From: Kappaphycus alvarezii
Taxonomy: Eukaryota; Rhodophyta; Florideophyceae; Gigartinales; Solieriaceae
DNA length: 64,000 nt
Direction of reading: 5' to 3'
Assembly: GCA_002205965.3 (NCBI GenBank)
Contig: NADL03000068.1
Coordinates: 1 to 64,000 of the forward strand
Shown here: piece after piece, positions 1-58,400 of the stretch
Layout of the letters: each line of letters starts with the position of its first letter
Position numbering within the stretch: position 1 is the stretch's first letter
Notes under the pieces: model-generated
Databases searched by the model: none
What the model was told of the DNA's origin: nothing
What the model saw: only the letters and a program-made list of their open reading frames with translations
Translations under genes and position numbers: made by a program

Positions 1-947
1 TGGCTTGTGAAAGAATATGCTAAGGAGGTAGAACCAGATGAGATGATTCGTACCGCCATAGAGGCCCGGCTCAACTTCGACGATTTGTTAAGCTCATTGG
101 TATACTTGTGTGATCTCTATGAAAAGGCTGGGTTCAACGCCCAAGCCAAGTACGGAATGCTGCGTAAGGCGGCGATGGGGGATAAGCGGCTCTCCGATTT
201 CCTCTCATCAAGGGCCCTCACACTTTTAATGAACTGAAGGGTACCATAGTAGAATTTGTCAAAAATTCGGAGACGTTTCAGTCACTAAGTGAAATGCCGA
301 CGGAAACCCGTACATCTATGCCGATCGTACATCCTGAAAAGAATTATCAAAGGCCAGCGACTAGCGCAGCAGCATTGGAATCAGTCAGGAGCGATGTCAA
401 AAACTTGGAAGAAAGGTTGGAAACCCGATTCGATAATCGACTTGACATGATAACCTCGCAGTTGGAAAGCCTTACTCTTACCATTAAGAAGAACCAGTCT
501 GGGGCCCCCAAGGCCGCAGAAGTCTGTTCCTACTGTCACAAGCCTGGACACTTTGCAAATAGGTGTCCTGATAATCCACATAGAAACACTCGTTGTGGAA
601 AGTGCGGTCGATATGGGCATCATGAAAGTAACTGCTGGTCTAAAGACAACAGAAAAGCAAATTTATCGGACGCAAGGAGCGAGTCAGGACCAGAGATGAA
701 AATCTTACAAAACAGAAAGGATCACAAGTTGACGGATGCCGGTAACGTATCCATCGCTGAAGAAATCAGTCAAGTCAATGTGACAAAAAGGGATGGGGAA
801 GGGAACATTTTATCGAAGAAACCTAGGCTAGATTATGGAATGCTGGAACATATCCCAGCACCTGTACCTCCTCGAACCAAGAGGTCTGATCAAGTTGTTC
901 CAGGAGTTGGAGTCACTCCGGCCAAGAAGACGAAAAAGAGTAAGTAA
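1..947 (+). pseudogene. gag: gypsy copy A Gag (5' partial, one frameshift)
   Basis: This is the structural capsid/nucleocapsid protein of the retrotransposon, which packages element RNA in cytoplasmic particles. Two CCHC zinc knuckles are visible near the C-terminus of the second frame (294-947): CSYCHKPGHFANRC and CGKCGRYGHHESNC. Upstream are an acidic/coiled segment with repeated Leu-Glu-Arg and a helical capsid-like part (7-237). The two frames are separated because copy A lacks one C near 203-206 that copy B has. The end of gag overlaps the start of the pol frame by about 110 bases in the +1 frame, the arrangement used by Ty3-type elements for frameshifted Gag-Pol. The true start codon lies outside the window; copy B starts at 17751. 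Confidence 0.88.
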
Positions 948-3900
948 ATTTAAGAATATCCCAAAGGACGTACTAGAATATGTGAAGAAGTACAATTTGG
1001 TGGCTGAGCTTGCATCAGCCCCAACTGGGATAACGTTTGGTCAACTTTTGAGGGGCGACGCAGAGGACGCGAGGAAAGAACTCAAAAAAATTATCAGGTC
1101 TAATAAGTCCGCTAAGGGTAAGAAACTGTTTCTTCAATCGGCCTCGACAGCACCAAGACGTCTTAAACTAGTACCAGTCAAAGTATTGGGAATGCAAACC
1201 CAAGCTCTTTTCGATTCGGGCGCTGTTCCAAACCTTATTTCAGAAACTTTGGTGACAGATCTAGGTCTTGAAATTATTCCAACTACTCGAAGAATAACTG
1301 TGGCGGATGGAACCGTATCAAAATGCATGGGCACTGTTGACAAGGTTTCCGTGTTCTTTGGGGACTCTAAAGTTGATTTAGACTTTCTTGTCATGCCTGA
1401 TCTCCCTTTCGATGCAATCATTGGCTGCCCTACCATGGAAAGACTAGGGACCTGCATTGACTTGGGCAACCAAATCGTTTCAGTTAATGTTGACGGCAGA
1501 ACCGTGAAGATGCCCCTGGATTTCGACAAAAGCACACATCCGGTAGATTTGAAAGAAACGGACAGTGAAGATTTCACTTCTAGCTATGACAGCGAAGATT
1601 TCGAACCAACTAACACTTTCGGAAGTGGAGAAGGGTACGCTCGGGGGATACTGAACATGGCATGGGATGATTATGATTCTGGGTTTGAAACAGATGAAGA
1701 CTGGAATTCTAGGGTAGGTGTGACACCTGAATGTGTTTCTTTTTGCGATAATATCGAATCAAAGGACGGAATTCGGAGCATGAAAGAAGATTACAATTGC
1801 AAGGAAAACAGGAATATATCGGATTCCATATCTGAAGATGTGAGCACGCCGGAAAAGGTCCTTCAAAATATTGAGGTTGAGAATCAAGAAAAAAGGGCGC
1901 CAAATGGCAGAAATCCAAGGAAAAGTGCAGCACCTTCCGCCGCCGCCTCACTGAAAATATCCGACATGTTAGCATCTTCCGAAGTAATTGCATGGAGTGT
2001 ATCAGATTTAAGACAAGCAAGTGTACCGGTCACTCACTCATTTGAACTTACCGATACTCAACCAATTTACCACAGGCCTAGACGTCAACCGCCAAAATAT
2101 GACCAATTTATCTCAGAGAATGTTACAAGTATGCTGGAAAATGATATTATTCGGCCAGTTTCATCCCCATGGTCATTTCCAGTTGTGATAGCACCAAAGA
2201 AAGATGGAAAACTTCGCTTTTGCGTCGATTACCGACAGCTGAACCAGAGAATGATACCCGATCGATTTCCGATTCCAAACATGGAAGAAATCCTCGAGGA
2301 CTTGAAGGACGGGAGATACTTCACCTCAATTGATCTTTACACTGGTTATTGGCAGATTCCATTAGATGAAAAATGTAAGGAAATAACAACTTTTACCAGC
2401 AAAGCCGGTACATTCAGGTTCGAAGTGATGCCTTTTGGTCTCATGAATGCCCCAGCTACATTCCAAAGAATGATGAACGAGGTTTTGAAAGGACTTCCAT
2501 TTGCAAGAGTTTATATCGATGATGTGGTGATATTCTCAAAAACCTTGGATCAGCACATATCGCATGTCAAGACTGTGGTGGAGAGAATAGATGCGTACAG
2601 CCTGAAAATTAAGTTAAGCAAATGCTTCTTTGCGAAAACGTCTATCCAATTACTCGGTCATATCGTCGATCAAGAGGGAATTAAAGTGGATCCAGAGAAA
2701 ACGAAAAAAATCAAGTTGGCACCCAGGCCCGCTTCAAAGACGGAGGTTCGAAGCTTCTTAGGACTGGCCTCATATTACAGAAGATTTATCAAAGATTTCG
2801 CCAAAACTGCAGCACCGTTACATGCCAGCACTACGAAGAACGGAAAATTTTACTGGAACAAGGAAATGCAGACTGCATTTGAGGAGCTTAAAGATAAGCT
2901 ATGTGTCCCCCCAGTGCTCATGTATCCAGATTTCAAGAGACCATTGTTGTGGAGACAGATGCCTCAGAACGGTCTTTGGGTGCCATTTTGTCCCAAAAAG
3001 ACGAAAACGGAAGACTACACCCTGTTCAATTCGCAAGTCGCACTCTGAATGATGCGGAAAAGAGATACTCAGTCTGCGAGAAAGAAGCGCTAGCTGTCGT
3101 CTTCGCACTGAAAAAGTTTCGTGTTTACCTTTTATCACTCGAGAAATTTGTCTTGATAACTGATCACCAGGCACTTAAGACAGCATTCCAAAAGAAAGAT
3201 GTACATCACCGCTTGGCCCGATGGCTCGACATTTTCGCAGAATATCGGTTTGAAATTGTGTATAGGCCCGGACGCAATAATCAGCCTGCCGATTACCTAT
3301 CCCGCTTGAGGGATCCATTGATTCCAAATGAAAAAGCTTCCGAAGACATCGTCGGAGTTGCCGAAGTTCAAGTGCCGATCGATAACGAGTACGAAGCTTA
3401 TATTCACGGACTTATTAAATTCCTTGATGGACTAGAAATGAGAAAGGTTGATCTCGAACACAGAAATTGGGTACGCAGGAACCAAAAGGCCTTTACATTG
3501 TGGAATGGGAAACTCTTCCGCACACTAAAGCCGGTCCCGACTAGTGGCCCCTTTGAAAGAAAGAATGAAGATCTTGAGGACTTTCATGATGAGCTAGGGC
3601 ATTGGGATCTCGAAACAACCAAAAAATTCAACTGAGAGATTCTGGTGGCCCAGTATCCATAAGGACGTCTATAATTTCGTGAAAAGCTGTGACAACTGTC
3701 AAAAATTCACTCCGATACGAAAGTATAAGACAACCCTAAGCTTCCCAGTTTCCGCTCTCTTTGAAACCTTCTCAATTGACTTTGCCGGCCCATTCAAGGA
3801 AACCTCTTCCGGAAACAAATACCTCCTTATAGGGGTGGAACATCTTACTGGATGGCCAATAGCAGTTGCAGTTGAGGAGGCCAATGCTGAGGTGGTCCTG

Positions 3901-4624
3901 AGATTCATCGAAAAAGAAATAATTGAACCGTTTGGTCTTCCAAAAAGGATCATCTCAGATAACGCCCTTTGTTTTACTGCAACTTCACTGCTTCGTTTTT
4001 GGAGAAAAAGGGATTCAGCTGAAGACAGTTCTCGCATACGCTCCTATGTCAAACGGTAAAGCGGAGAGGATGGTTGGAACCATCAAACGAGCAATATCGA
4101 AAACTATGTCGAAGAATGAAATCCAGTGGGAAGATGCCTTACCAAAAGTGTTATACGGCTATCGTCGAAGAAGAGGAAGAAGCGGACGGTCACCATTCGA
4201 GCTAATGTACGGAAGGGCTCCTAGAATGTTACAGAGAGACATGGAAACAAATATTATCGATGAAGAGAGTAGAGAAGTCGAACTACTGGCCACTGAAGGC
4301 TGGAGATCACACCGCGCGCTAACACAGACAAGAAATAAGAATGAAGAGCCTCCAGTCCAAACCTTTTCAGTCGGCTCTAAAGTACTTGTAGTACATGGGA
4401 AAGCAATGCAGCAGGCTGTGAAGTGGCCGGCCTTCCAAACAAAGTACTCGAATCCTTGCGTCGTCACGGAGGAAAGACACCCGCACTATAAGCTATGTTC
4501 AAGCTCAGGGAAGAGATCAAGGAGGGCCATCCATGCACGTCGTCTAGTCCCTTACCATCAGAGGCCTGAAGAATTCCTTCTCACACAGGACTATGCGCAA
4601 CCACGGGGCATACTCATCTTTAAC
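835..4624 (+). pseudogene. pol: gypsy copy A Pol: protease, RT, RNase H, integrase (several frameshifts)
   Basis: Pol copies element RNA into DNA and integrates it. Aspartic protease: active-site triad in FDSGAVPNLIS near 1210. Reverse transcriptase: about 2080-2700, with LYTGYWQIPLD, MPFGLMNAPATFQRMM and the catalytic YIDDVV near 2512. RNase H: 2940-3300, with ETDASERSLGA, ending in the gypsy signature RPGRNNQPADYLSRL. Integrase: HHCC zinc-binding part ending CDNC near 3690, first catalytic Asp in IDFAGPF near 3775, second in SDNALCF near 3955, Glu in SNGKAERMVGTIKR near 4050. The frame is lost near 2943 (a T missing relative to copy B), near 3630 (two bases missing) and near 4000. From 3923 one frame runs through integrase straight into the third ORF. 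Confidence 0.92.
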
Positions 4625-4630
4625 TATAGA

Positions 4631-5692
4631 ATGATTCCTATGGGAGGAAAAAGGGCCTGGGAATGGATCATCTCGATTACGCGTGACTACTACGAACTCC
4701 ACGTAATCGTCCATTTCTACATTAATATATGCCTATGTTTTCGTACGTTGAACGGACCATTGCTACCTCAAGAAGATTTCCGACTATTGATCAGAATTCT
4801 ATTCTCATTCCAAAACGGAAGGTTCACGGAAGCAGGTCCAGAGTTTGTGGAAGTCATATATCATTACTCTATAGGAAGGTATGGAATGGTAGCTATCGGA
4901 GACTTGTCGCAAACATATCTGAACATTATCCGTCCGGTTTACGTATTTCTTAAGAACAACCAAGATGTGCGACTGAGAGGTTACAGCTTGCCCCCTGATA
5001 TGGAATATCGACTGGTCCCGTATCCTCTATGGGAACCTTACGTTGCTCCGCTCAGAAACACAACCTCAGCCGAAGACCAGGATCCTCCCGAGGCCGTGAT
5101 GATGATACGAGCTGGACCATCAAGTGATCGGGGCGGATCATCGAAGAGGGCAAGGCGTCGGGAGCAGCGAGGAAGATCGCCAAGAAGATCGCCTCAAACA
5201 CCGCCTAGTCTCCCAGGGGGAAACTATGCATCCTTAATTATTGGACGGCTACCAATTAGACGTTGGCTTCGCGAAATGACAGAGGACCCACGAGAAGCAG
5301 AAGTAATTTCCTTTTTTGCAATTAGTATTTGCATGTGCTTCCAGACCATTCACGGGGCGCACCTTACTCGTGAGGACTCAGTCCTTATGTTGCGAGTTTT
5401 TTTCTCCTTCAGATACCCGTTTCTGGACCCGTTGCCAGAAAAGTTTGCATACTACGTTTATTACCTCACATTTGGAAGGTTTGGAGAAGTGAAACGGGAG
5501 GAGCTCATTAGAGAACACTATGAAACCATACGCCGAATCTACGAAACTCTTGACCAAGGAGATGAGCCGGTCATCGCACGGTACACACTCTCTCATCATA
5601 TTGGAAATGAGCTACTACCATATCCTTATAGTGAACCCTATACTCTCCCTGATGAATGGATAGAACTCCCACAAGAACAACAAGAGCATTGA
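4631..5692 (+). CDS. Third gypsy ORF: 353-residue protein with duplicated domain, unknown function (copy A)
   Basis: I do not recognise this protein. It sits between integrase and the polypurine tract, where env lies in retroviruses and some gypsy elements. Two halves are clearly related. Half 1 has ICLCFRTLNG, then LLIRILFSF, then IGRYGMV, and ends VPYPLWEPY. Half 2 has ICMCFQTIHG, then LMLRVFFSF, then FGRFGEV, and ends LPYPYSEPY. They are joined at about residues 155-195 by an Arg/Ser/Pro-rich linker containing KRARRREQRGRSPRRS, which looks like a nuclear-localisation or RNA-binding patch. I see no signal peptide, furin site or clear transmembrane anchor, so an envelope role is not supported. 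In this copy the frame is fused to integrase, so this may be a C-terminal extension of Pol. The start is the ATG at 4631, which matches the ATGA overlap in copy B. Confidence 0.85.
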   Translation: MIPMGGKRAWEWIISITRDYYELHVIVHFYINICLCFRTLNGPLLPQEDFRLLIRILFSFQNGRFTEAGPEFVEVIYHYSIGRYGMVAIGDLSQTYLNIIRPVYVFLKNNQDVRLRGYSLPPDMEYRLVPYPLWEPYVAPLRNTTSAEDQDPPEAVMMIRAGPSSDRGGSSKRARRREQRGRSPRRSPQTPPSLPGGNYASLIIGRLPIRRWLREMTEDPREAEVISFFAISICMCFQTIHGAHLTREDSVLMLRVFFSFRYPFLDPLPEKFAYYVYYLTFGRFGEVKREELIREHYETIRRIYETLDQGDEPVIARYTLSHHIGNELLPYPYSEPYTLPDEWIELPQEQQEH

Positions 5693-5717
5693 GAACGAGA
5701 CGGGACGTTCGACCTAA

Positions 5718-7130: not shown

Positions 7131-7140
7131 ATTATCCTCA

Positions 7141-7415
7141 TATATCTTCCAAGAGTAAAACACCCAAACCTTTCCCCATAGGGCACTGGAGACGTACGGA
7201 AAGGTTCGGTGGGTTTGATGCAAAGGCACGCCGCAGCAGCCGTCATGTCCAATGCGGCCTGCTTGATGGCTGGCCTGAAGGCAGCATTGTAGGGAGCGTA
7301 GTTCCTTCCCCATTACTGTGTCGGTATACCCTTTTTGAGTCGATTGCGGTTGTCTGGAAAACCATGGGATAGATCGGATATATCTTCCAAGAGTAAAACA
7401 CCCAAACCTTTCCCC
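7141..7415 (+). repeat. Two 37-bp perfect direct repeats bracketing a 201-bp segment
   Basis: A 37-base unit beginning TATATCTTCCAAGAGTAAAA and ending CCTTTCCCC lies at 7141-7177 and again at 7379-7415. The bracketed segment (7178-7378) holds the short conserved coding piece at 7218-7292. The pair may reflect a local duplication, or deletion scars of a larger element. Confidence 0.8.
7218..7292 (+). pseudogene. Short coding remnant, repeated at 63903 (unknown protein)
   Basis: The frame starting MQRHAAAAVMSNAACLM ends at a TAG at 7290-7292. A related copy near the window end (63903 onward) reads MQRHAATAATSTAICLL in the matching frame. About half of the codon differences between the two are third-position or otherwise synonymous (for example GCC/GCT, GCA/GCG, TTG/CTG, CTG/CTC), which suggests this frame was once translated and selected. 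The homology begins a little upstream with Gly-(Asp/Asn)-(Val/Ile)-Arg. The family is not recognised. Confidence 0.4.
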
Positions 7416-7489
7416 CTTTCCCCATTATCCTCATTCCCCACGTCGGGAAATGAACGCATGTATACTTCCCAGACGCCGCCCGGACTTCA

Positions 7490-9373: not shown

Positions 9374-10154
9374 ATGCCTTCAGCAAACACTGCCATTGCT
9401 CACACGAAGACGGATCAGGCTTTGGGTCACCGAAACCAGCCTCAGTTCCAACCACAGTCAAGCTTAGATGGAGAATCTCGTCTCCGAGCCAATACGGCAA
9501 AGGGCAAATACCGCAGTCAGGTGGCTACATTGGGGGAACATAAAACTGAGACCGCATTTTTGGACTCTGGTGCAACACACTACTTCTTCCATAGTCGCAC
9601 ACCATTTAATTCCCAAAACGAAATTGCCAAAGAGACCATACAGGCCGCAGCAGGAACCTCACATCAAACGCACACAGCCAAATCCCATGTATTGATGACC
9701 AAAATCAGATCTGAGCCTCCCATAATTGTTCGAGACTATAAAAAAACTGGCCGAAACTCACGTCTCGACCGCGAACTACAAATTACGGAGAAATCGCTTC
9801 GATCCAGCTGGCGAACATATGAGCAAAGAAATGATTTCTTTTCTGAATTCATCAGGGCTTGAAGTCAAGCCCTCACCCTCACGGACACCTGGGAGCAATG
9901 GTACCGCTGAAACTCTCTTTCAAGAGCATTGGACAAGGGCTAGGGTCTCACTCCATGACAGCAATCTCACACCAGAATTTATGGGGCGAAGCTTTAAAAC
10001 ATGCAAACTGGCTACGCAACAGACTTTCGGCTACAATGCTTTTAACGGCCATGTTCCGATCCAGCTATGGGATCATAGTATAGAGATAGACTTTCCGTCA
10101 CTGCTGACATTGGGGCAGCCAGGGTTCGAGCTCATTTACTGTTCCCACTCGTAG
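9374..10154 (+). pseudogene. pol: copia 1 protease fused to partial integrase
   Basis: The frame beginning 9374 encodes the aspartic protease core FLDSGATHYFFHS (9555-9595). After about 9730 the reading moves to a shifted frame with the C-terminal half of the copia integrase core: EHMSKEMISFLNSSG, then PSPSRTPGSNGTAETLF containing the catalytic Glu, then SLHDSNLTPEFMG. The HHCC zinc domain and the first catalytic Asp, which normally lie between protease and this segment, are absent, so roughly 500 bases were deleted. Confidence 0.8.
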
Positions 10155-10439
10155 CAAGCCAGAAAGCTGAAACTTCGTTCTAAATTCGGCCACTTCGTCG
10201 GTATGGAGTCAGACAATAGGCAGATAAGGGTGTATATCTCAGGGTCCAAGTCAGCCAGAGTCGCCACGAGGGCCTATTTGACTACGATTTCGAACAGAAA
10301 GCTCCCAGGTGCTTCTTTCTTACTCGACGGTCTTGCAAGACAACATGAGATTGAGGTCGCAAACGTAGATTAAATGGAATCCGCTCAAGATAAACTAACC
10401 TAATTTATAACTTCAGTGCACCAACAGGCTGCGGAAATG

Positions 10440-11280
10440 GTTTACCCTGACGGAAAGGAAATTCTAAAGACGGCATATGAACCAAAACCTTTGTTGGAGC
10501 CTGTAATATTCCCCAAAGGGCCGAGGCTAAGGGTAGTGAGTACAATGCACTAATTAAGAGAATAACATGGTCCTATGTACACCAAAGCGCTAAGATAATC
10601 CCATTACCGTTCAAATGGACTTTCAAGGCTAGGCTTCTAGACTCCACAGAGATCCAGCATATGGCAGAGACACGCTTTACTCTGAGAGATATCGCCAACG
10701 GGCGTACGTGGGCTTTGACTCGGAAACCATTTATGCTCCCGTCGCATCCCATGAGACTATACGTCTCTGTTCTCTACAGCTGCTGCCAATAAACTCATAC
10801 TAGAAGTAGGCGATATTTCCAATTCATACCCACACGGAACACTTGACGTACCGATATACGTGGTACAGCCTACAAATTCTTCCCACCAGCTGACTATATC
10901 CGGGCACATATGCAAATAAGAGAAGTCTGTCTATGGTACTAGACATGCATATCATACCTACGGTTCATTTCTTCACGAGGGACTCACCAATTGGGGAATA
11001 AAAGCCTCCTACTACGACAACAGTCTTTTACTTTGTACGTGTCAACGCAGACTTCATTGCTTCATTGTTTTAGCAGTCTTAGTAGATGATATGGACTTTC
11101 CTGCGAACTTCGAAGTTCTATTAGAGAACTTAAAAGACTTTTTGTCCGCCACTTTTTACATCAAACTCTTTGGTGAGCTCATACCCTTCATTGGATGGAC
11201 AATAACTCGCTCTCCAACGGGAATTCGGATCGACCAAGAACGTTATGCAAATAATTTCTAAAAGCATATGGTATGACCCA
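10440..11280 (+). pseudogene. pol: copia 1 reverse transcriptase remnant
   Basis: Scattered frames give copia RT landmarks in order: PLPFKWTFKARLLDS near 10600, IYAPVASHETIR near 10730, HEGLTNWGIKASYYDNSLL near 10975, the catalytic LVDDMDF near 11083, and IPFIGWTITRSPTGIRID near 11185. There are many stops and shifts. The polymerase YVDD box is changed to LVDD. Confidence 0.75.
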
Positions 11281-11351
11281 ATCAAATGCCATTTTGACGC
11301 CACTTCCCATGGATGGACGATCAACAGCAAGCACCGTAAGAGAACGGGGAA

Positions 11352-12065
11352 TTGACACTAGCAGGAAAAGAACAACATGCCTATCGTAGCGTAATCGGCG
11401 GTTTACTAAGCTTGGCCGTATATAATCAACTAGGCTTATCATTTACAGTGTCAGCTATTGCTCATCACTTGCGTACCGCTACGGGACGCCACATGAAGCT
11501 GGTGGAGAGAGTTTTTCGATACCTGAACGATACTAACCACTTTGGACTGCACTATAACAGCGCATTCGGAATGAAAGCAGAATCAATTGGTGCTTCCGTG
11601 CACGCAGACTGGGGCGGATGCACAAATACCAGGATATCAACCACCAGATTCATGGTCGACATCAACGGGTCACCATTATATGGAAGTCAAAGCGACGGAC
11701 TGTTATCACCACCCTTCTGGAGAATGCGAATACACAGCACTCACAGCATGCGGGAAAGAGCTTTTCTGGATAAGGAAACTCTTTCGGGAAATGTACCACC
11801 AAGCCCCTTGGTCTGAGGAACGATTTTTCTGCCCAATCGTAATCAAAACGGACAGCACAGTGGCCATCTTAATGTCCATGGCAGATAATGTGTGGCCTAA
11901 AGGTAAACACATCTACCTTGGCGTTCACACGGTGAAGGAACTCATTCACGATGGCGTAGTAAAGTTGGATCACGTCCTTCCAATCGCAACAAAGCGGATC
12001 TACTAACAACGTCAATGATGAGAGACGCTTTGAGCCGGATGATTTGTTTATGGTACTTGGATAGC
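11352..12065 (+). pseudogene. pol: copia 1 RNase H and C-terminus
   Basis: YRSVIGGLLSLAVYN (near 11385) is the copia motif that precedes RNase H. GASVHADWGGCTNTRIST follows near 11590. After a shift near 11685 come GECEYTALTACGKELFWIRK and VIKTDSTVAILMSMA, ending in SNRNKADLLTTSMM near 12010, the usual copia C-terminal signature. These correspond to the RNase H core that removes RNA from RNA-DNA hybrids. Confidence 0.82.
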
Positions 12066-14423: not shown

Positions 14424-15203
14424 GGCGAGGCAAGCGCTAGTGTAGGTAAACCAGGTCCAGACTGTGGTTACAGCAAGCGCGGAGCACAGAAAACGATGCA
14501 ATTTTTTCCCGGATGGAAGGGCGTTTGAAGAACGTCAGGGAGAACTGTTTGCCGCGGAGAGAGTGATGCCTGCGGTGCGTTGAATCCTGGAGAAGATAGA
14601 GAGACTATTTGACAAACTCCTTTTTTGATGCTTGAGTAAATGTCTGTTTCGAAGTCGATGGAAAATGCTGAGTGAAGAATATCGATGAGAGGTGATGCGT
14701 GAAACAGTCGAAGTTGGAGAATCACAAGCGGATGTTCAGAGCTGAGTCAGTTGAGGGAGCAGTATGACGGGGCAGATTGCTATTAATACGCTTCTTTGGA
14801 TGCTCACAGCTTCAAGCAAAGGAACTGCATTCCGAAGCAGCTGCCCGCCCCTCAATCCAGTAAACGCATTGCTTCAAAGACGGTGGTTACATGGCAAATC
14901 CATCGACAATGACTATGACAATACGTCGCGTACACCCCGTTGAAGACATAGATTACCGCAGTCAGCTTTCGGTACCAGCACAGTGACCGAGAAGCTCCGA
15001 GATGTAATTTGTGATTCAATATCAAAGCGGGCAATTAATGCGGAAGCACAGCCGTTCTTGCTCATCATTACGCAGAGCTAAGGGACCGCGACAGCAAACA
15101 CACAGCTCAAGAAATGTCGTGGCCTTTGAATAGGGGCAATGAGTTTCACCAACCAAGACGACAACGATTTCGTCCAGCAAACCAACTGCCGCACCACCCA
15201 GAA
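14424..15203. other. Upstream region of the zinc-finger gene, no gene seen
   Basis: I see no coding frame with recognisable content. It should include the promoter of the minus-strand zinc-finger gene. From about 15114 it merges into the left part of the repeat whose right part recurs at 6570. Confidence 0.5.
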
Positions 15204-16138: not shown

Positions 16139-16941
16139 TTAAGTGTCCTGAGTATTTACCTCAAGACCCTCCTCACGACGCTCGGCATCAAGATCCCCTC
16201 GGTGAATAAAGAAGTAAGAATGCCCTACAAGGGGATGTGACCGGATGAGGTGCTCTGGCATGACAAGTACACAACTGGGGCCCCTTCTACAAAGTTTTTC
16301 TAGAAATGAGTCCTTCTCATATCTCCGATCCGCTGTGATTACACAATCTTTCAACGCTTTTTCACCCTTCTCGTCCAAAATACTAGACAGAAGTGTAGCG
16401 ACAGGCTTTGTCTGCATTTCTCCTCTCCTTCTAACCATTAGCCCAAGGATCACGCAAAAACGAGCGTCTGCAATCGAACCTGCAGAATTGCCTTCTTTGT
16501 CAGCCTCACGTGCGCTTAGAATATTTCACTTGATTGTACGCTGCACGTGTTCCGAAACGGTCAATGTCAAGCGTCGCAATCAAATGCAGTGGAAAAAAGA
16601 ACAATTTTCTTGTCTGTCTAAACGCCAGGTGTTCAAACTCCGAAAGGTTGCTAGGCTGATCGCGTTGGGAGTCCCATATCAATCCGCCCTCTTGTCCCCT
16701 GCCTGTTGGTGGATATGCCAGTAGATTGGAAAAAAATAAAAACTAAGCGGGCGAGAGGAGGTGTGCCCGTACCGATTGAACTTATCATAAAAATTGCTTT
16801 CTCAGTTCTGAAACCTGAGTTGCGCGTGAGGAGAAGCACTGCGAGGAATCGATACATGTCTGCGTTTGACACCGGCCTTTCTTTCAATTGATGACTCACT
16901 ATTGCTTCTTTAATCCAGTCTCTTATCTGTTTCAGTGGAGA
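16139..16941 (-). pseudogene. PiggyBac-like transposase, C-terminal part, split by gypsy B
   Basis: Minus-strand frames read as a DDE_Tnp_1_7 (PiggyBac-type) cut-and-paste transposase. Near the insertion point: SPLKQIRDWIKEAI, then SNADMYRFLAVLLLTRNSGF (16780-16941). Further on (16139-16453): VATLLSSILDEKGEKALKDC, then VITADRRYEKDSFLEKL, where the Asp-Arg-x-Tyr looks like a catalytic-core strand, and CVLVMPEHLIRSHPLVGHS. Middle frames are shifted. The upstream coding part lies at 24418-24545 on the other side of gypsy B. The family assignment rests on motif layout only. Confidence 0.6.
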
Positions 16942-17661
16942 TGATGTGCGCAAATTCGCACACGAAAAAATTTAGATGAGGACCATAATTGTATACAGTA
17001 TTGGAACTGGGAAGATATTTTTACAGTTTTTGAATTTGCAAGATATTTTTAATTTGGGTGAGTGTGGCAAATTCATCGGTTGATTTTTTATTTTAGGACA
17101 CGCTGTCATAGTGGATGTCAGTACAGTTCTAGGTTGTGGGTGATACTACGAGTGACTCTGAAAGGTCTATATAATGGCCACATCAATTCCCACCCCTGGC
17201 CGATGGGTGGCTGGCATGGGTATGGCACCTAGATATTTACCTTGAGGAAATATCTTCTAATGGTCTCTCTGGTTCACACGATTCCCGTGAATGCGTTTTA
17301 TGGTATTTAGTATGTTTGATTGAGACTTTAGGATTAGCCGAAAGGTCTATATAAGCTGAGTAAAGTGCTTCCTCCTTGAGAGGTCAAGCAAGTTGGCAGA
17401 CAACTTCAGGTCAAGCTCCGAGTAGTAGGAAGTTGAGAGTCAACTTCAGACCCTAGAAAACTTTTTCCTAAGCTGGTCGCAGAGCATCAGTGGTAGACCC
17501 TGCCCCTTTTATACTTGCTTGTAGCCCTCTCAACTCTCTCCCATATACACTCCTTTTTATTTGTTCAACTATACCACGGTAGCACTTTTGTCGCTCGCAA
17601 CACCTCCGTCTTGGGGTAGTTGGTTCTAAGTATCTCTTCTCCCGACGATTTACCCCTATCA
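16942..17661 (+). repeat. 5' LTR of gypsy copy B
   Basis: Opens TGATGTGCGC and closes CCCCTATCA. It differs from the 3' LTR by only a few bases: a small indel in the GCGCAAAT..CGCAC start and CAAGCTCC versus CGAGCTCC near 17415. It contains a duplicated promoter-like word, GAAAGGTCTATATAA, at about 17160 and again at about 17339. The second sits where a TATA box for element transcription would be. Confidence 0.95.
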
Positions 17662-17750: not shown

Positions 17751-18659
17751 ATGGATCTCAACGCTGCTCGTCTAACGTTCTCAGGGGGCAAGAATGAAGA
17801 CGTTGAGGAGTTTTCTCTATACATATGTCAACCGTTGTGATGCGTGAGAAGAGCGATGAAGAGAAGGCCGAAAGTATCTTCGCCTATCTTCATGGTGACG
17901 CAAAGCACAAATATAAGGCCAAGTTTATCAACGGGTGGTCTCTTAACGGGAATGGGCGTAACTTCGGTGAGGTATGTGAGTGGCTTGTGAAAGAATATGC
18001 TAAGCAGGTAGAACCAGATGAGATGATTCGTACCGCCATAGAGGCCCGGCTCAACTTCGACGATTTGTTAAGCTCATTGGTATACGTGTGATCTCTATGA
18101 AAAGGCTGGGTTCAACGCCCAAGCCAAGTACGGAATGCTGCGTAAGGCGGCGATGGGGGATAAGCGGCTCTCCGATTTCCTCCTCATCAAGGGCCCTCAC
18201 ACTTTTAATGAACTGAAGGGTACCATAGTAGAATTTGTCAAAAATTCGGAGACGTTTCAGTCACTAAGTGAAATACCGAGGGAAACCCGTACATCTATGC
18301 CGATCGTACATCCTGAAAAGAATTATCAAAGGCCAGCTACTAGCGCAGCAGCATTGGAATCAGTCAGGAGCGATGTCAAAAACTTGGAAGAAAGGTTGGA
18401 AACCCGATTCGATAATCGACTTGACATGATAACCTCGCAGTTGGAAAGCCTTACTCTTACCATTAAGAAGAACCAGTCTGGGGCCCCCAAGGCCGCAGAA
18501 GTCTGTTCCTACTGTCACAAGCCTGGACACTTTGCAAATAGGTGTCCTGATAATCCACATAGAAACACTCGTTGTGGAAAGTGCGGCGATATGGGCATCA
18601 TGAAAGTAACTGCTGGTCTAAAGACAACAGAAAGCAAATTTATCGGACGCAAGGAGTGA
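17751..18659 (+). pseudogene. gag: gypsy copy B Gag (two frameshifts)
   Basis: The ATG at 17751 (MDLNAARLTFSGGKNEDVEE) is taken as the start because it follows the leader and is in frame with a capsid-like sequence. A base is missing near 17822; the frame resumes at 17825 and is lost again near 18086 (copy A has two extra bases, TG, there). It resumes at 18135 and runs through the first zinc knuckle CSYCHKPGHFANRC. The second knuckle is broken: after CGKCGD the sequence shifts and gives MGIMKVTAGLK instead of the Cys/His pattern of copy A. Confidence 0.88.
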
Positions 18660-21600
18660 GTCAGGACCAGAGATGAAAATCTTACAAAACAGGAAGGATC
18701 AAAGGTTGGCGGATGCCGGTAATGTATCCATCGCTGAAGAAATCAGTCAAGTTAATGTGACAAAAAGGGATGGGGAAGGGAACGTTTTGTCGAAAAACCT
18801 AGGCTAGATTATGGAATGCTGGAGCATATCCCAGCACCTGTACCTCCTCGAACCAAGAGGCTGATCAAGTTGTTCCAGGGTGGGAAACACTTCGGCCAAG
18901 AAGACGAGAAAGAGTAAGAAATTTAAGAGTATCCCGAAGGACGTACTAGAATATGTGAAGAAGTACAATTTGGTGGCTGAGCTTGCATCGCCCCAACTGG
19001 GATAACGTTTGGTCAACTTTTGAGGGGCGACGCAGAGGATGCGAGAAAAGAACTCAAAAAAATTATCAGGTCTAATAAGTCCGCTAAGGGTAAGAAACTG
19101 TTTCTTCAATCGGCCTCGACAGCACCAAGACGTCTTAAACTAGTACCAGTCAAAGTATTGGGAATGCAAACCCAAGCTCTTTTCGATTCGGGCGCTGTTC
19201 CAAACCTTATCAGAAACTTTGGTGACAGATTTAGGTCTCGAAATTATTCCAACTACTCGAAGAATAACTGTGGCGGATGGAACCGTCTCAAAATGCATGG
19301 GCACTGTTACAAGGTTTCCGTGTTCTTTGGGGACTCTAAAGTTGATGTAGACTTTCTCGTCATGCCGGAGCTCCCTTTCGATGCAATCATTGGCTGCCTA
19401 CCATGGAAAGACTAGGGACCTGCATTGACTTGGGCAACCAAATCGTTTCAGTTAATGTTGACGGCAGAAACGTGAAGATGCCCCTGGATTTCGACAAAAG
19501 CACACATCCGGAAGATCTAAGAGAGACGGACAGTGAAGATTTCACTTCTAGCTATGACAGCGAAGATTCCGAACCAACTAACACTTTCGGAAGTGAGAAA
19601 GGGTACGCTCGGGGGACAATGAACATGACATGGGACGATTATGATTCTGGGTTTGAAACAGATGAAGAATGGAATTCTAGGGTAGGTTTGACACCTGAAT
19701 GTGTTTCTTTTTGCGATAATATCGAATCAAAGGACGGAATTCGGGGCATGAAAGAAGATTACAATTGCACGGAAAACAAGAATATATCGAATTCCATATC
19801 TGAAGATGTGAGCACGCCGGAAGAGGTCCTTCAAAATTTGGAGGGTGAGGATCAAGAAAAGGACCAGCGCCAAATTGGAGAAATTCAAGAAAAAGTACAG
19901 CACCTTCCAGCCCCCGCCTCAATGATAATATCCGACATGTTAACATCTTCCGAAGTAATTGCATGGAGCGTTCAGATTTAAGACAAGCAAGTGTACCGGT
20001 CACTCACTCATTTGAACTTACCGATACTCAACCAATTTACCACAGGCCTAGACGTCAACCGCCAAAATATGACCAATTTATCTCAGAGAATGTTACAAGT
20101 ATGCTGGAAAATGATATCATTCGGCCAGTTTCATCCCCATGGTCATTTCCAGTTGTGGTCGCACCAAAGAAGGATGGAAAGCTGCGTTTTTGCGTCGATT
20201 ACCGACAACTGAACCAGAGAATGATACCCGATCGATTTCCGATTCCGAATATGGAGGAAATCCTCGAGGACTTGAAGGACGGGAGATACTTCACCTCAAT
20301 TGATCTTTACACTGGTTATTGGCAGATTCCATTGGATGAAAAATGCAAGGAAAAAACAACTTTTACCAGCAAAGCCGGTACATTCAGGTTCGAAGTGATG
20401 CCTTTTGGTCTCATGAATGCCCCAGCTACATTCCAAAGAATGATGAACGAGGTTTTGAAAGGACTTCCATTTGCAAGAGTTTATATCGATGATGTGGTAA
20501 TATTCTCAAAAACCTTGGATCAGCACATATCGCATGTCAAGACTGTGGTGGAGAAAATAGCTGCGTACAGCCTGAAAATTAAGTTAAGCAAATGCTTCTT
20601 TGCGAAAACGTCTATCCAATTACTCGGTCATATCGTCGATCAAGAGGGAATTAAAGTGGATCCAGAGAAAACGAAAAAAATCAAGTTGGCACCAAGGCCC
20701 GCTTCAAAGACGGAGGTTCGAAGCTTTCTTAGGACTGGCCTCATATTACAGGAGATTTATCAAAGATTTCGCCAAGACTGCAGCACCGTTACATGCCAGC
20801 ACAACAAAGAACGGAAAATTTTTATGGAACAAGGAAATGCAAACCGCATTTGAAGAGCTTAAAGATAAGCTATGTGTCCCCCCAGTGCTCATGTATCCAG
20901 ATTTCAAGAGACCATTTGTTGTGGAGACAGATGCCTCAGAACGGTCTTTGGGTGCCGTTTTGTCCCAAAAAGATGAAAACGGAAGACTACACCCGGTTCA
21001 ATTCGCAAGTCGCACTCTGAATGATGCGGAAAGGAGATACTCAGTCTGCGAAAAAGAAGCGCTCGCTGTTGTCTTCGCACTGAAAAAGTTTCGCGTATAC
21101 CTTTTATCACTCGAGAAATTTGTCTTGATAACTGATCACCAGGCACTTAAGACAGCATTCCAAAAGAAAGATGTACATCACCGCTTGGCCCGATGGCTCG
21201 ACATTTTCGCAGAATATCGGTTTGAAATTGTGTATAGGCCCGGACGCAATAATCAGCCTGCCGACTACCTATCCCGCTTGAGGGATCCACTGATTCCAAA
21301 TGAAAAAGCTTCCGAGAACATCGTCGGAGTTGCCGAGGTGCAAGTGCCGAACAATAACGAGTACGAAGCTAATATTGACGGACTAATTAAATTCCTGGAT
21401 GGACTAGAAATGAGAAAGGTTGATATTGAACACAGAAATTGGGTACGTAGGAATCAAAAGGCTTTTACACTATGGAATGGGAAACTCTTCCGACACACGA
21501 AAGCCGGTCCTCGACTAGTGGCCCCTTTGAAAGAAAGAATGAAGATCTTGAGGACTTTTCATGATGAGTTAGGGCATTGGGATCTCGAAACAACCAAGAA

Positions 21601-22608
21601 ATTCGTTACTGAGAGATTCTGGTGGCCCAGTATCCATAAGGACGTCTATAACTTCGTGAAAAGCTGCGACAACTGTCAAAAATTCACGCCAATACGAAAG
21701 TATAAGACAACTCTAGGCTTTCCAGTTTCCGGTCTCTTTGAAACCTTTTAATTGACTTTGCCGGCCCATTCAAGGAAACCTCTTCCGGAAACAAATATCT
21801 CCTTATAGGGGTGGAACATCTTACTGGATGGCCAATAGCAGTTGCAGTTGAGGAGGCCAATGCTGAAGTGGTCCTGAGATTCATCGAAAAAGAAATAATT
21901 GAACCGTTTGGTCTTCCAAAAAGGATCATCTCGGATAACGCACTTTGTTTTACTGCAACTTCACTGCTTCGTTTCTTGGAAGAAAAAGGTATTCAGCTAA
22001 AGACAGTTCTCGCATATGCTCCTATGTCAAACGGGAAAGCGGAGAGGATGGTTGGAACCATCAAACGATCAATATCGAAAACTATGTCCGAGAATGAAAT
22101 CCAGTGGGAAGATGCCTTACCAAAAGTGTTATACGGCTATCGGCGAAGAAGGAAGAAGTGGACGGTCACCGTTTGAGCTAATGTACGGAAGAGCTCCTAG
22201 AATGTTACAGAGAGATATGGAAACAAATGTTATCGATGAAGAGAGTAGAGAGGTCGAACTATGGCCACCGAAAGCTGGAGATCACACCGCGCGCTAACAC
22301 AGACAAGAAATAAGGATGAAGAGCCTCCAGTCCAAACTTTCTCAGTCGGCTCTAAAGTACTTGTAGCACACGGAAAAGCAATGCAACAGGCTGTGAAGTG
22401 GCCGGCTTTCCAAACAAAGTACTCGAACCCTTGCATCGTCACGGAGGAAAGACACCCGCATTATAAGCTCTGTTCAAGCTCAGGGAAGAGATCAAGGAGG
22501 GCAATCCATGCACGTCGTCTGGTCCCTTACCATCAGAGGCCTGAAGAATTCCTTCTCACACAGGACTATGCGCAACCACGGGCATACTCATCTTTAACTA
22601 TAGAATGA
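18660..22608 (+). pseudogene. pol: gypsy copy B Pol: protease, RT, RNase H, integrase (many frameshifts)
   Basis: Same domain order as copy A. Protease FDSGAVPNLI near 19185; RT 19963-20720 with the catalytic YIDDVV near 20489; RNase H 20920-21290 with VVETDASERSLGA intact; integrase HHCC domain 21560-21690 intact up to CDNC; integrase core 21750-22110 with SDNALCF and SNGKAERMVGTIKR. Breaks relative to copy A occur near 18780, 18990, 19210, 19310, 19400, 19960, 20730, 21750 and 22150, almost all single-base gains or losses. The last frame (22261-22608) stops at the TGA at 22606-22608, overlapping the next start codon. Confidence 0.92.
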
Positions 22609-23666
22609 TTCCTATGGGAGGAAAAAGGGCCTGGGAATGGATCATCTCGATTACGCGTGACTACTACGAACTCCACGTAATCATCCATTTCTACATTAAT
22701 ATATGCCTATGTTTTCGTACGTTGAACGGACCATTGCTACCTCAAGAAGATTTCCGACTATTGATCAGAGTTCTATTCTCATTCCAAAACGGAAGGTTCA
22801 CGGAAGCAGGTCCAGAGTTTGTGGAAGTCATATATCATTACTCTATAGGGAGGTATGGAATGGTAGCTATCGGAGACTTGTCGCAAACATATCTGAACAT
22901 TATCCGTCCAGTTTACGTATTTCTCAAGAACAACCAAGATGTGCGACTGAGAGGTTACAGCTTGCCCCCTGATATGGAATATCGACTGGTCCCATATCCT
23001 CTATGGGAACCTTACGTTGCTCCGCTCAGAAACACAACCTCAGCCGAAGACCAGGATCCTCCCGAGGCCGTGATGATGATACGAGCTGGACCATCAAGTG
23101 ATCGGGGCGGATCATCGAAGAGGGCAAGGCGTCGGGAGCAGCGAGGAAGATCGCCAAGAAGATCGCCTCAAACACCGCCTAGTCTCCCAGGGGGAAACTA
23201 TGCATCCTTAATTATTGGACGGCTACCAATTAGACGTTGGCTTCGCGAAATGACAGAGGACCCTCGAGAAGCAGAAGTAATTTCCTTTTTTGCCATTAGT
23301 ATTTGCATGTGCTTCCAGACCATTCACGGGGCGCACCTTACTCGTGAGGACTCAGTCCTTATGTTGCGAGTTTTTTTCTCTCTTCAGATACCCGTTTCTG
23401 GACCCGTTGCCAGAAAAGTTTGCATACTACGTTTATACCTCACATTTGGAAGGTTTGGAGAAGTGAAACGGGAGGAGCTCATTAGAGAACACTATGAAAC
23501 CATACGCCGAATCTACGAAACTCTTGACCAAGGAGATGAGCCGGTCATCGCACGGTACACACTCTCTCATCATATTGGAAATGAGCTACTACCATATCCT
23601 TATAGTGAACCCTATACTCTCCCTGATGAATGGATAGAACTCCCACAAGAACAACAAGAGCAGTGA
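22605..23666 (+). CDS. Third gypsy ORF: 353-residue duplicated-domain protein (copy B)
   Basis: Same length as in copy A. The ATG at 22605 overlaps the integrase stop as ATGA (22605-22608), a layout compatible with termination-reinitiation. The two related halves end VPYPLWEPY and LPYPYSEPY and are joined by the basic linker KRARRREQRGRSPRRS. Between about 23380 and 23440 a +1/-1 indel pair changes a short stretch to QIPVSGPVARKVCILRL, where copy A has the sequence matching the first half. Copy A is therefore the better guide there. Function unknown; no signal peptide or membrane anchor seen. Confidence 0.85.
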   Translation: MIPMGGKRAWEWIISITRDYYELHVIIHFYINICLCFRTLNGPLLPQEDFRLLIRVLFSFQNGRFTEAGPEFVEVIYHYSIGRYGMVAIGDLSQTYLNIIRPVYVFLKNNQDVRLRGYSLPPDMEYRLVPYPLWEPYVAPLRNTTSAEDQDPPEAVMMIRAGPSSDRGGSSKRARRREQRGRSPRRSPQTPPSLPGGNYASLIIGRLPIRRWLREMTEDPREAEVISFFAISICMCFQTIHGAHLTREDSVLMLRVFFSLQIPVSGPVARKVCILRLYLTFGRFGEVKREELIREHYETIRRIYETLDQGDEPVIARYTLSHHIGNELLPYPYSEPYTLPDEWIELPQEQQEQ

Positions 23667-23687
23667 CGAGCCGGGACGTTCGTCTTG

Positions 23688-23699: not shown

Positions 23700-24417
23700 T
23701 GATGTGCGCAAATATCGCACAAAAAATTTAGATGAGGACCATAATTGTATACAGTATTGGAACTGGGAAGATATTTTTACAGTTTTTGAATTTGCAAGAT
23801 ATTTTTAATTTGGGTGAGTGTGGCAAATTCATCGGTTGATTTTTTATTTTAGGACACGCTGTCATAGTGGATGTCAGTACAGTTCTAGGTTGTGGGTGAT
23901 ACTACGAGTGACTCTGAAAGGTCTATATAATGGCCACATCAATTCCCACCCCTGGCCGATGGGTGGCTGGCATGGGTATGGCACCTAGATATTTACCTTG
24001 AGGAAATATCTTCTAATGGTCTCTCTGGTTCACACGATTCCCGTGAATGCGTTTTATGGTATTTAGTATGTTTGATTGAGACTTTAGGATTAGCCGAAAG
24101 GTCTATATAAGCTGAGTAAAGTGCTTCCTCCTTGAGAGGTCAAGCAAGTTGGCAGACAACTTCAGGTCGAGCTCCGAGTAGTAGGAAGTTGAGAGTCAAC
24201 TTCAGACCCTAGAAAACTTTTTCCTAAGCTGGTCGCAGAGCATCAGTGGTAGACCCTGCCCCTTTTATACTTGCTTGTAGCCCTCTCAACTCTCTCCCAT
24301 ATACACTCCTTTTTATTTGTTCAACTATACCACGGTAGCACTTTTGTCGCTCGCAACACCTCCGTCTTGGGGTAGTTGGTTCTAAGTATCTCTTCTCCCG
24401 ACGATTTACCCCTATCA
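23700..24417 (+). repeat. 3' LTR of gypsy copy B
   Basis: 718 bp, TG...CA, nearly identical to 16942-17661. It is followed by the target duplication GGAGA at 24418-24422. Confidence 0.96.
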
Positions 24418-24545
24418 GGAGAGTCGCAGAAAAAGACGAAGATAACAAAACGAGTGGGTGCGATTCCTTTCAATGCACATTGGGTTATGAAGTTATGCAA
24501 GGCAATCTTGCAGAACAAAGGAGATATCTTCCCCACTGTAGTTTC
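24418..24545 (-). pseudogene. PiggyBac-like transposase, N-terminal fragment beyond gypsy B
   Basis: On the minus strand this reads PTRFVIFVFFCDSP up to the insertion point. The frame is the same as the one that continues as SPLKQIRDWI on the other side of the element, across the shared GGAGA. A short hydrophobic FxxFF followed by D..l..I resembles the start of the PiggyBac transposase domain. The upstream limit, where copia 2 RNase H ends, is uncertain. Confidence 0.5.
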
Positions 24546-55417: not shown

Positions 55418-58400
55418 GTGGAAGATCTTCCACCCGCTTGTGTGCAAGCCTACTGTGGGCAACATGAGGCGTTAATTCTGCCATCTGACGAAGACTGCGT
55501 CGAAGATTGTGAACAAGCATGTATTGTTGGAGGCGAATGCTTGGAGTGCAAACAAGACGCGGGAACAAATTTGATGACAGGAGAAGGGCTAAGCCCGACA
55601 GCCGCAAGCAGAAATATACCTTATGAACATCTGCAGGGTGTAGGGCGTACAGCGTACTTAAAGATATTGCGAAAGATTCGATCGAGTCTCGAATCCTGGA
55701 TCAAGTTGCTAGGTTTCATCGCCATCTGTGGGAGCGTCAGATTCACAGTGTCGCAGTACAATTTTCTCCGCTCAATTCTTCTGTTCATGTCTAGCGATGA
55801 GTAAGTCCCATCTTATTCGGCAATACAGCGATAAATGTTTCCGCTGGCCCTACGTCATTTATTTCCCTCCAGTTTTATTTACCCCATGCAAGGTACACTT
55901 GGTTAAACTAACGTCAAAATTACTATCCGTATGGTTCCCCCAAGTTCTTGGGCAAGGGTGGAATTCAGCACATTTCCTTTCTTCCAGGACATGTACGGCG
56001 AGGAAGCTTTCCGGCTATGCCTGAGATCTCGGGTGGTTCCTGATGATCTTGCTGGAGTAGACCTGTTGACACAATCGAGAAAGGACTTCTTGAGAATTGT
56101 AAGATTGTTCGAAATCGTCGAAGTGTGACAGATCCGAGCGGAGTGCTATTTTCGAAAAGGGATAGCCATATAGTAGCCGTTTCGCGCGGTGATACGATAC
56201 GGATTCCGACAGAAGAAATCCCAGAACAAGTTAGGAGAGAACACTCCAACCCAAGTACGTTTGGATTCCGTCGTTCAAGTTCTGGACATTTGCTTATCAA
56301 AGCGACCATTGAATGTGTATGGACAGCGGGATCCCACGTTATACCAACTTCAAGCGGCAACGAAGCAGTGAATGAAGTAGATAGATTCTTTAATCAGTTC
56401 TTGCAATCTATGGTCACTGTCGCTCCTGTACGGGAACGGAGAGCACGCATCCGAGTAGATCGTTAGGCTGCGAGACACCTTTTTGCTCAGGAGGAGAATA
56501 ACGCCGACCGCGTACTTCCTGGGGACACTTGCGCCTTGCTTCGGCCTTTGTATGATCCTAAAACATGTTCTCTTGTGGCAGTACTGGTCATGCGTTTCCG
56601 AGCGCATCAAGACGGGATCCCGTCGGAGAGGGTATTCTGGTACAATCTTGCTGAAATAAGACCCGTTCCGGTGAACAAAACTAGTTGCATTAACAACGCC
56701 AATGAACACTCATTCATCGATGAGCTGAAACCTTGTCCCATTCAAGATGTCCTGGGGGTCCCCACTGCAGACATGGGCTACGGTCAAGAATTTGTCCGAG
56801 TCCACGAAGATTCTCGAAGCCAAGATTGCAATCAACGCAACATTACCAAGCTTCAGAGCGGTCAGGGGTATGTCATCTACCGATTTCTATTATATTCTGG
56901 CGATTTCAATCCTTCAACGACTCTCTGTCCTCGAGGCTCTGCAGGAGGCTGCTACCTTTCAGCGCTGGGTATATCACCTTTCAGGCGTAATACCCGGTCT
57001 GCCGTGCACAAAATTTCCCTCACACCCCCGGGAATTTCTACAAACGGAGTATTACGACTGGTAATTCAGGACATTATCGAGGCGACTACGAATGGAGTGG
57101 ATGGGGTGCTTCCTGACGGCACGCCAGTGAAGATCTTCATTGATATCGTTGGGTATAAAGCCGACTACCCGGCTTCTGCGCATGCATCAGACGTAATGGG
57201 ACACAATTCTAACTCCTTGTGTACCATATGTGGGTTCAGAAAGTCAAAAACTGGTCATGGAAGCGAGAATGGATACACGACAAACCTTCACAGTATGAAT
57301 CCGGCGTGGGCCATAAGTGCCGATCGGCACGCGGCTCTTCAATCAAGCAAGGTACCTTCATCTCATGCTACTCTGCTAGGCGTGAAGTCTAATGAGGAGG
57401 TGGAAGATCTGCCACCATTGATTGCTGTTCAGGATGATCTGTGTAAGGCGCGTTCTCGCATTCCTCTAACATCGGAAGGAAAGCCTGTTGTACCTGGAAT
57501 TTTTGATGCGTATAGGAGCAACCTGATAGCCCCGGACCACTTGCTCATCGGGCTTGCCAAGACTATAATCAAACTGTGTCTCACAGTCAGCAAACAGTCA
57601 AAGCTGGAGAGGATGGATGTTGGCATTTACTTATGTGACACTTTGAGGCGAAATGGATTGTTAACTCAGAACAGTGTGTTCAATTCGAAAGGTGAGCTCA
57701 ACACAATGAGTCTGTCTGCAACATACTGTCCATTTCTGGTATGTGGACCTGTATTTCGCGAGCTTTGGAAGGGTCGTCATGGCGATGTAATGGAATTGCT
57801 GACTTGTCTGCAGACGCTATTTTGCTTGAAATTTTGGTCGCCAACATTCCCCGCGGATGGAGAGAATGTGGTACGGTATGTGAGTGGGGAAGGACGGCAC
57901 ATGTACCTTGAAGATCTCCAGGCACATTGCGAGCAATACGTGAAGATGGTTGACGATTTCTGCAAGAAGGATCGTACTCTTGGAAAAGTGCTAGAAAAAC
58001 CTAACTTACACAGACTGCTGGAGCTTTTCCATCACTCTCTGCCGGCACTTGGTCACGCCAGAAATTTTATGGAAATGGTATTCGAAAGCGCGCATCAATC
58101 GCTGAAGCGTTGCATCGTGAGGAGTAATCATCAAGACGCGCATGTACCTGCAGTGAATCACTGCATTGGGAACGATTGGCAAGGGAGAGTGGGACTGCTA
58201 CAATATTAAACCAAATCCGATCAGATTGGTATTGATCTTTTGGCAAGAAGGGGGCTGCGGCCTTTAATAATGGGAAACGAGTCAGATCTACTCTACTGTA
58301 GGAGGGAAAAAGAGAGAAACTTCTGTCCTGCTCGGACAAGATGATGAAATCTACTTGTGTAGAACCAGTTGTGAAGGAATTACGCAGTGGGGAGAAGATA

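Follow-up and report, generated by a model that had tools for sequence, protein, structure and literature searches.

A duplicated domain at the C-terminal end of Pol in a Ty3/gypsy element of the red alga Kappaphycus alvarezii

Introduction

What is encoded between integrase and the 3' LTR of a Ty3/gypsy element from the red alga Kappaphycus alvarezii, and does this region stand apart from Pol, in the manner of env, or does it belong to it? The question is raised by a stretch of 64,000 nucleotides (assembly GCA_002205965.3, contig NADL03000068.1, positions 1 to 64,000), here called the window, in which two copies of the element each show an ORF of 353 codons behind integrase. Integrase tails help to decide the insertion sites of retroelements, and few kinds of such tails are known.

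Additions near the end of pol have been described in several groups, and all of those considered here share some feature with the present element. A chromodomain is located behind integrase in Ty3/gypsy chromoviruses and in the oomycete Chronos elements, so that particular clades have gained an additional domain beside integrase where Pol ends (PMC5348765). Additional ORFs between pol and the 3' LTR are reported from plants (PMC7264820) and for Retand TRP28 (PMC11963269), and in the relevant portions of these accounts they are coding sequences without an assigned function, situated between integrase and the 3' LTR in many copies. LTR elements of bdelloid rotifers possess ORF3 types encoding a GDSL esterase or a DEDDy exonuclease, and the sections on ORF3 present these as non-env domains gained behind pol and common to several retroelement lineages (PMC5408684). 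Accessory domains of retrotransposon polyproteins are treated, in the passages devoted to them, as non-essential additions with proposed roles for the element or for the host (PMC6338049).

Results

Two Ty3/gypsy elements with uneven divergence

Both copies have the pol order of Ty3/gypsy elements, protease, RT, RNase H, and integrase (Pfam; tblastn on copy 1), and copy 2 has LTRs of the TG...CA type with a short target duplication. Pfam recognises protease and RT in copy 1, as well as, weakly, its zinc knuckle and integrase, and matches RNase H and the integrase zinc finger well in copy 2. The 5' end and the 5' LTR of copy 1 lie outside the 64,000-nt window.

1..5711, plus strand: internal region of Ty3/gypsy copy 1 (part of gag, protease, RT, RNase H, integrase, extra domains), delimited by Pfam, blastn to copy 2, and tblastn with P0075
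5728..6569, plus strand: 3' LTR of copy 1, TG...CA, resembling the LTR of copy 2 in its last 268 bp only
16937..16941 (left) and 24418-24422 (right): target site duplication GGAGA, 5 bp, read from the flanks of copy 2
16942..17661, plus strand: 5' LTR of copy 2, 99.3% identical to its 3' LTR (1 mismatch and 2 gaps in ~720 bp)
23700..24417, plus strand: 3' LTR of copy 2

The interiors of the two copies are 96.2% identical over 5725 columns (blastn). The initial annotation regarded their LTRs as different, which is correct for the 5' parts, as these are unrelated, but not for the final 268 bp, which are 84% identical; together with an interior that is 96% identical, this pattern indicates that the U3 part was swapped. 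Variation limited to the 5' half of the LTR, as seen here, is also described for crapaud of Podospora anserina, in an account whose relevant part concerns LTRs and mentions no added protein domain (PMC10787394). The divergence between the copies (1-5711 and 17981-23682) resembles that of a recombinant mosaic, being very uneven by region (8 to 53 substitutions per kb): gag has 20, protease-RT 44, RT-RNase H 26, integrase 53, and the extra domains 8. The 3' module accumulates only 9 substitutions in 1083 nt, the remaining 4628 aligned nt 175, and synonymous divergence is lower in the extra domains (6 of 248 sites) than in pol (87 of 706 sites; p 7e-7). The low divergence of the 3' module points to recent sharing or recombination, and this is probably how it is best read from the sequences. 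Since the 3' module of the two window copies is nearly identical, its retention in both of them is by itself weak evidence for function.

The alignment of the two copies contains 29 gaps, and 8 of the 22 single-base gaps fall in runs of at least two equal bases. Copy 2 (17981-23682) combines near-identical LTRs with many internal 1-base gaps relative to copy 1, so either its parent was already broken or the gaps are assembly errors.

The extra region consists of two diverged domain copies

The 353-codon ORF of copy 1 lies at 4631-5692, and its counterpart of the same length is found at 22605-23666 in copy 2. Its halves form a gapless alignment of 129 residues with 33% identity (E 4e-24), scoring 86.7 bits against a maximum of 23.9 in 200 shuffles, and, compared with each other, they show pS 0.71 and pN 0.50. 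The proposal that the ORF is built from two diverged copies of one domain is thus borne out, and the motif pairs adduced for it, ICLCFRTLNG/ICMCFQTIHG, LLIRILFSF/LMLRVFFSF, IGRYGMV/FGRFGEV, and PYPLWEPY/PYPYSEPY, are present, as is the Arg/Ser-rich linker. The domain is ~145 residues long, and its first copy (N) starts at ~4622, i.e., upstream of the ATG of the ORF.

3923..5692, plus strand: frame open from inside integrase across both extra domains to the stop codon (copy 1)
4622..5050, plus strand: first domain copy (N), adjoining integrase, with 40% identity to the one domain that P0075 has at its C-terminus
5051..5221, plus strand: Arg/Ser-rich linker joining both domain copies
5222..5650, plus strand: second domain copy (C), sharing 36% identity with the P0075 domain and 50% with the subfamily-B second domain
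22596..23024, plus strand: first domain copy of element copy 2, out of frame with integrase owing to a 1-base difference
23196..23624, plus strand: second domain copy of element copy 2, with a compensated frameshift inside

The linker at 5051..5221 resembles a nuclear localisation signal and may be one.

The extra region is a C-terminal extension of Pol

In copy 1, tblastn aligns P0075 with a single frame between 3959 and 5134, which takes in the integrase end as well as domain N. Copy 2 differs by one base (4605 in copy 1, 22579 in copy 2), which creates a stop beside the ATG and splits domain and integrase, and two 1-base indels, at 5406 and 5461 in the numbering of copy 1, compensate each other and alter part of its second domain. 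For the ATGA of copy 2, coupled stop-restart translation was considered as well and is ruled out, the junction being made by the 1-base difference 4605/22579. In all 30 fetched near-identical copies from the same genome (L001-L030), the domain follows the HARR motif of integrase in frame.

A separate env-like ORF is rejected on account of the frame that domain and Pol have in common, both in relatives and in genome copies; the extra region is a C-terminal extension of Pol/integrase and not an accessory ORF in the env position, as had been supposed. What remains of that description is that both copies have 353 codons behind integrase, although in copy 1 this frame is continuous with integrase. 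An env-like protein made from a separate ORF would fit the position between integrase and the 3' LTR, the ATG-started ORF of copy 2, and a hydrophobic stretch in all five domain copies. For membrane anchors the hydropathy limit is ~1.6, and the 19-residue maxima of these stretches are 1.26-1.67, with one of the five just over it. By eye, the initial annotation made out no signal peptide, furin site, or membrane anchor. However, the fusions to Pol in copy 1, in the relatives P0075 and P0084, and in the 30 fetched copies largely refute such a protein, and the domain of a further relative, P0003, lies between protease and RT. We regard an env-like protein as very improbable. An apparent ORF in the env position can turn out to be a frameshifted piece of Pol.

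The domain pair is retained in the genome

The 336 Mb of the own genome (884 contigs) were searched with P0001, and the best 115 of 5284 first-look candidates were scored, which makes the copy number a lower bound; the 115 are the best-scoring end of a larger family. They are 98-100% identical, and 114 of them are without an internal stop, one having an internal stop. In 102 of these best-scoring copies the open frame comprises at least 386 codons, by length enough to reach the HARR motif of integrase, and in 28 it comprises at least 900 codons, the longest having 1357. The zero nonsynonymous differences among L001-L030 were not used, as these copies were chosen as 100% matches.

For a sample not selected by the domain, every seventh of 150 scored integrase matches was taken, giving 22 copies, of which 4 were already in the list of the best 115 and 18 were fetched. 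The initial annotation would have been contradicted by absence of the ORF from most other copies; both domains are present in 22 of the 22. Across the two domains 17 of the 18 fetched copies need more than one frame, and by construction these 18 fall outside the best-scoring list.

After dropping codons with gaps, stops, or no assigned frame, the two window copies differ in the extra domains by 6 synonymous and 3 nonsynonymous changes (6/9; p 0.006 against the site shares), in the rest of pol by 87 synonymous and 34 nonsynonymous changes (87/121), and in gag by 8 synonymous and 10 nonsynonymous changes (p 0.024). A passenger without function that is merely carried along would account for the many broken copies, for the 29 gaps between the window copies, and for the frame changes in the 17 integrase-chosen copies, but it would not lead one to expect both domains in every integrase-chosen copy, the lack of internal stops in 114 of the best-scoring 115, the excess of synonymous changes, or the keeping of the domain in elements whose RTs share 62-66% identity. 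We consider this explanation very improbable.

Integrase matches on C325, C385, C420, C425, C671, and other contigs occur on one strand at a spacing of ~7.5 kb (on C325, for example, at 14608, 22093, 29580, and 37070), as would be seen if the element formed tandem arrays, head to tail.

The domain family is undescribed in the libraries searched

Searches of Pfam, NCBIfam, and PHROGs gave sub-threshold chance matches or none for the extra domain, in line with the expectation that no known family would match. A catalytic domain of the GDSL or DEDDy type was not recognised by profile, apart from a single Pfam match (0.099), attributable to chance, among the five domain copies, and a chromodomain was not found by Pfam in P0001, P0002, P0075, or P0084. 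Sequence searches of the PDB returned nothing significant (best E 1.4, 0.05, and 0.22). Fold models from six-row alignments have pLDDT values of 52 and 43, too low for a confident fold, and contain six and five helices, and Foldseek with the first, weak model found nothing in the PDB at E 0.001 (best E 1.4). By pattern scans with six peptides or by tblastn, no counterparts were detected in viral contigs (P0001, P0075, P0084, P0003), in prokaryote contigs (P0075, P0084), or in plasmids (P0001). Derivation by duplication of gag, RT, RNase H, or integrase of the same element was also considered and rejected, as hhalign gives probabilities of 0.1-0.2% against five profiles.

With five copies aligned, seven columns are invariant, and with seven copies two (I and P) are. 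In the part of the literature on added ORFs or domains of retroelements that was covered, which lacks most subscription papers, no domain of this kind appeared. The domain thus represents an undescribed family, with respect to the libraries searched, in an already known kind of arrangement.

Related elements carry a single domain at two sites in Pol

P0001 alone retrieves no homologue at E 0.01 among 1064 candidates. The protease-RT ORF as query led to 72 proteins, and a second search led to 12 proteins, its query containing the domain and hence favouring carriers; the relatives are known from protein records, not from their DNA. P0003, which is 64% identical to the protease-RT ORF over the covered 45% of the query, matches the profile of the two halves with E 2e-8 (among 74 proteins) and has one domain between protease and RT. 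Significant profile matches among 82 proteins tested are P0075 (1.5e-39) and P0084 (2e-11), in which a single domain is fused behind integrase in a protein that also has protease, RT, and RNase H. All six pairwise domain scores (30.8-122 bits) exceed the maxima of their own 200 shuffles (21.9-29.3).

From the DSG motif of protease to the RT motif, P0003 has 530 residues, P0004-P0007 have 256-274, and the window element has 335. P0084 has 485 residues there and no domain, and therefore a long protease-RT spacer alone is uninformative. Measured from the Pfam end of protease to the start of RT, the spacers of P0075 (~485 residues) and P0084 (385-405) do not match the extra domain.

In the RT tree, whose 25 rows are 24 of the 83 relatives and the window element, the four carriers form one side of a branch (99/92), which requires one change, and none of 500 label shuffles was as low. 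To the window element, the carriers' RTs are 62-66% identical; among carriers the domain itself shows 18-39% identity. Seventeen close proteins were checked, and absence behind integrase was judged only in the five that extend to the integrase end: the domain is present there in P0075 and P0084, and P0080, P0081, and P0085 terminate 13-19 residues away from where the HARR motif starts.

As to the age of the duplication, the domain tree pairs N with P0075 (90/91), but a single clade of N and C is not rejected (p 0.105, or p 0.18 when the C domain of subfamily B is added).

A second subfamily differs in linker and second domain

A search of the genome with the P0084 domain, in which 150 of 2853 candidates were scored, gave 149 matches, and 30 loci were fetched, mostly belonging to one second subfamily (B) with the same first domain. 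The HARR motif shares an open frame with all or part of the first domain in 22 of these 30; eight weaker matches (L061-L068) are broken copies of the two subfamilies. As 21 of the 30 loci had no unbroken ORF, one of the remaining nine was used for comparison, and the values that follow refer to this one locus. The integrase end is 96% identical to that of the window element at the DNA level, and domain N is 94% identical at the protein level (pS 0.19, pN 0.03), whereas identity falls to 44% in the linker and 50% in domain C (pS 0.89, saturated; pN 0.34). Because N is near-constant and linker and C differ strongly between the subfamilies, the second domain looks like an exchangeable module, and at the sequence level the pattern points to an exchange of linker and second domain by recombination. 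The synonymous jump at domain C may also be recombination without functional meaning.

Free-standing ORFs with one domain copy

The genome search with the P0003 domain gave one match, an ORF on C651 (L087 1396-1959, minus strand) of 172 codons from ATG with one domain copy, which scores 46.0 bits, compared with a maximum of 12.4 in 1000 shuffles. In the 9 kb around it (C651:894000-903077, to the contig end), no retroelement match was found on comparison with 85 proteins including gag-pol relatives, the P0003 domain being the sole match among the 85. The C651 ORF as query gave 11 matches from 13 candidates, all of which were scored: the ORF itself, a 99% copy on C595, an open frame of 226 codons on C235 with 39% identity, and eight further, mostly short or broken matches spread over six other contigs. 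The frame on C235 is located past a subfamily-B element that shows no second domain in the sequence examined. The domain therefore also exists outside retroelement Pol in its own genome, as ORFs at L087 and L090, at low copy number. These ORFs likely represent a predicted host family, the source or an offshoot of the element's domain, and their position in the domain tree is uncertain because of long branches. A strong match of both halves to a known host family had been named initially among the outcomes that would refute the first interpretation; a likely host family with the domain was indeed found, but this family is itself undescribed in the libraries searched.

A short dispersed repeat with 80-86% identity is common to the window (7140-7417) and to the sequence around the free-standing ORF (L087 2597-2676, L089 485-720).

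Discussion

Similarity to described systems is limited to the arrangement. In contrast to the chromodomain, the extra domain comprises ~145 residues, gives no chromodomain match, is duplicated, is relocated in P0003, and also occurs free-standing. It is encoded in sense and in frame with Pol, whereas the ORFs of Retand TRP28 are antisense in the portion of PMC11963269 describing them; PF04195, known from TRP28, is not among the Pfam matches of the extra domain. The ORF3 proteins of rotifers are, in the part of PMC5408684 that characterises them, enzymes with intact catalytic residues, while here no significant Pfam family is matched. The chromodomain, DnaQ-like exonuclease, and RNA helicase that are named in the pertinent passages of PMC6338049 do not fit either. 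As a whole, the initial interpretation is partly supported: a duplicated, retained, and unmatched domain exists, and the accessory ORF in the env position does not.

We favour, with a probability of roughly 45%, the explanation that the domain is a mostly helical binding module, which the element has in common with the host genome and employs chiefly as a tail of integrase resembling a chromodomain. A binding module would be preferred to an enzyme because no catalytic-type polar residue is invariant, an argument that is itself weak since only two columns are invariant in seven copies. An integrase tail is favoured because three of the four element lineages keep the domain behind integrase; by analogy with the chromodomain, such a tail would link the integration complex with a partner from the host. 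In view of the free-standing ORFs, the domain may copy or compete with a host protein, and the element might use its copy of this protein to reach the protein's partner. With its first domain constant and its second variable, the element could have one fixed and one adjustable contact. The basic linker may help nuclear entry, which is not a shared feature, because the domains of single-domain relatives are net acidic, with tails, and have no such basic linker.

The site of the domain in P0003, between protease and RT, counts against a pure integrase tail, and the domain may be cut free. An accessory protein released from Pol by the protease, which would act alone, for example in reverse transcription, in the assembly of particles, or by serving as a decoy to counter a host defence involving the free-standing relatives, is a serious possibility, if a less probable one. 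For the retroviral dUTPase, place in the polyprotein matters little, and the occurrence of the present domain at both sites, behind integrase (window element, P0075, P0084) and between protease and RT (P0003), would fit a protein of this kind. The fast divergence of the domain among carriers relative to RT agrees with it too, and the exchanged second domain and the free-standing relatives would suit an arms race. Against a freed protein stand the three of four elements with the domain directly behind integrase on short linkers, and no cleavage site is known.

The binding module used as an integrase tail can be embedded in a wider scenario, which is more tentative still: a Ty3/gypsy clade would have adopted an undescribed family of host proteins as a mobile module of its Pol, giving a new integrase tail in place of the chromodomain, doubled into a constant and an exchangeable part and following, or blocking, the partner of the host protein. 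As the domain occurs fused, shifted (P0003), doubled, and free-standing, natural comparisons are available on whether such a module has to be attached to integrase and whether a host protein is borrowed by elements for the choice or defence of their sites.

Other features of the window

The minus-strand ORF of 443 codons at 12888-14219 matches the zinc finger zf-4CXXC_R1 (E 1.6e-5) and is a probable host gene. Copia-like remains occupy 9374-12006, where a weak Pol_BBD match (E 0.014) was obtained and the rest was assigned by eye. On the plus strand, a 557-codon ORF at 56536-58209, which has no Pfam match, resembles by eye a transposase of DNA transposons.
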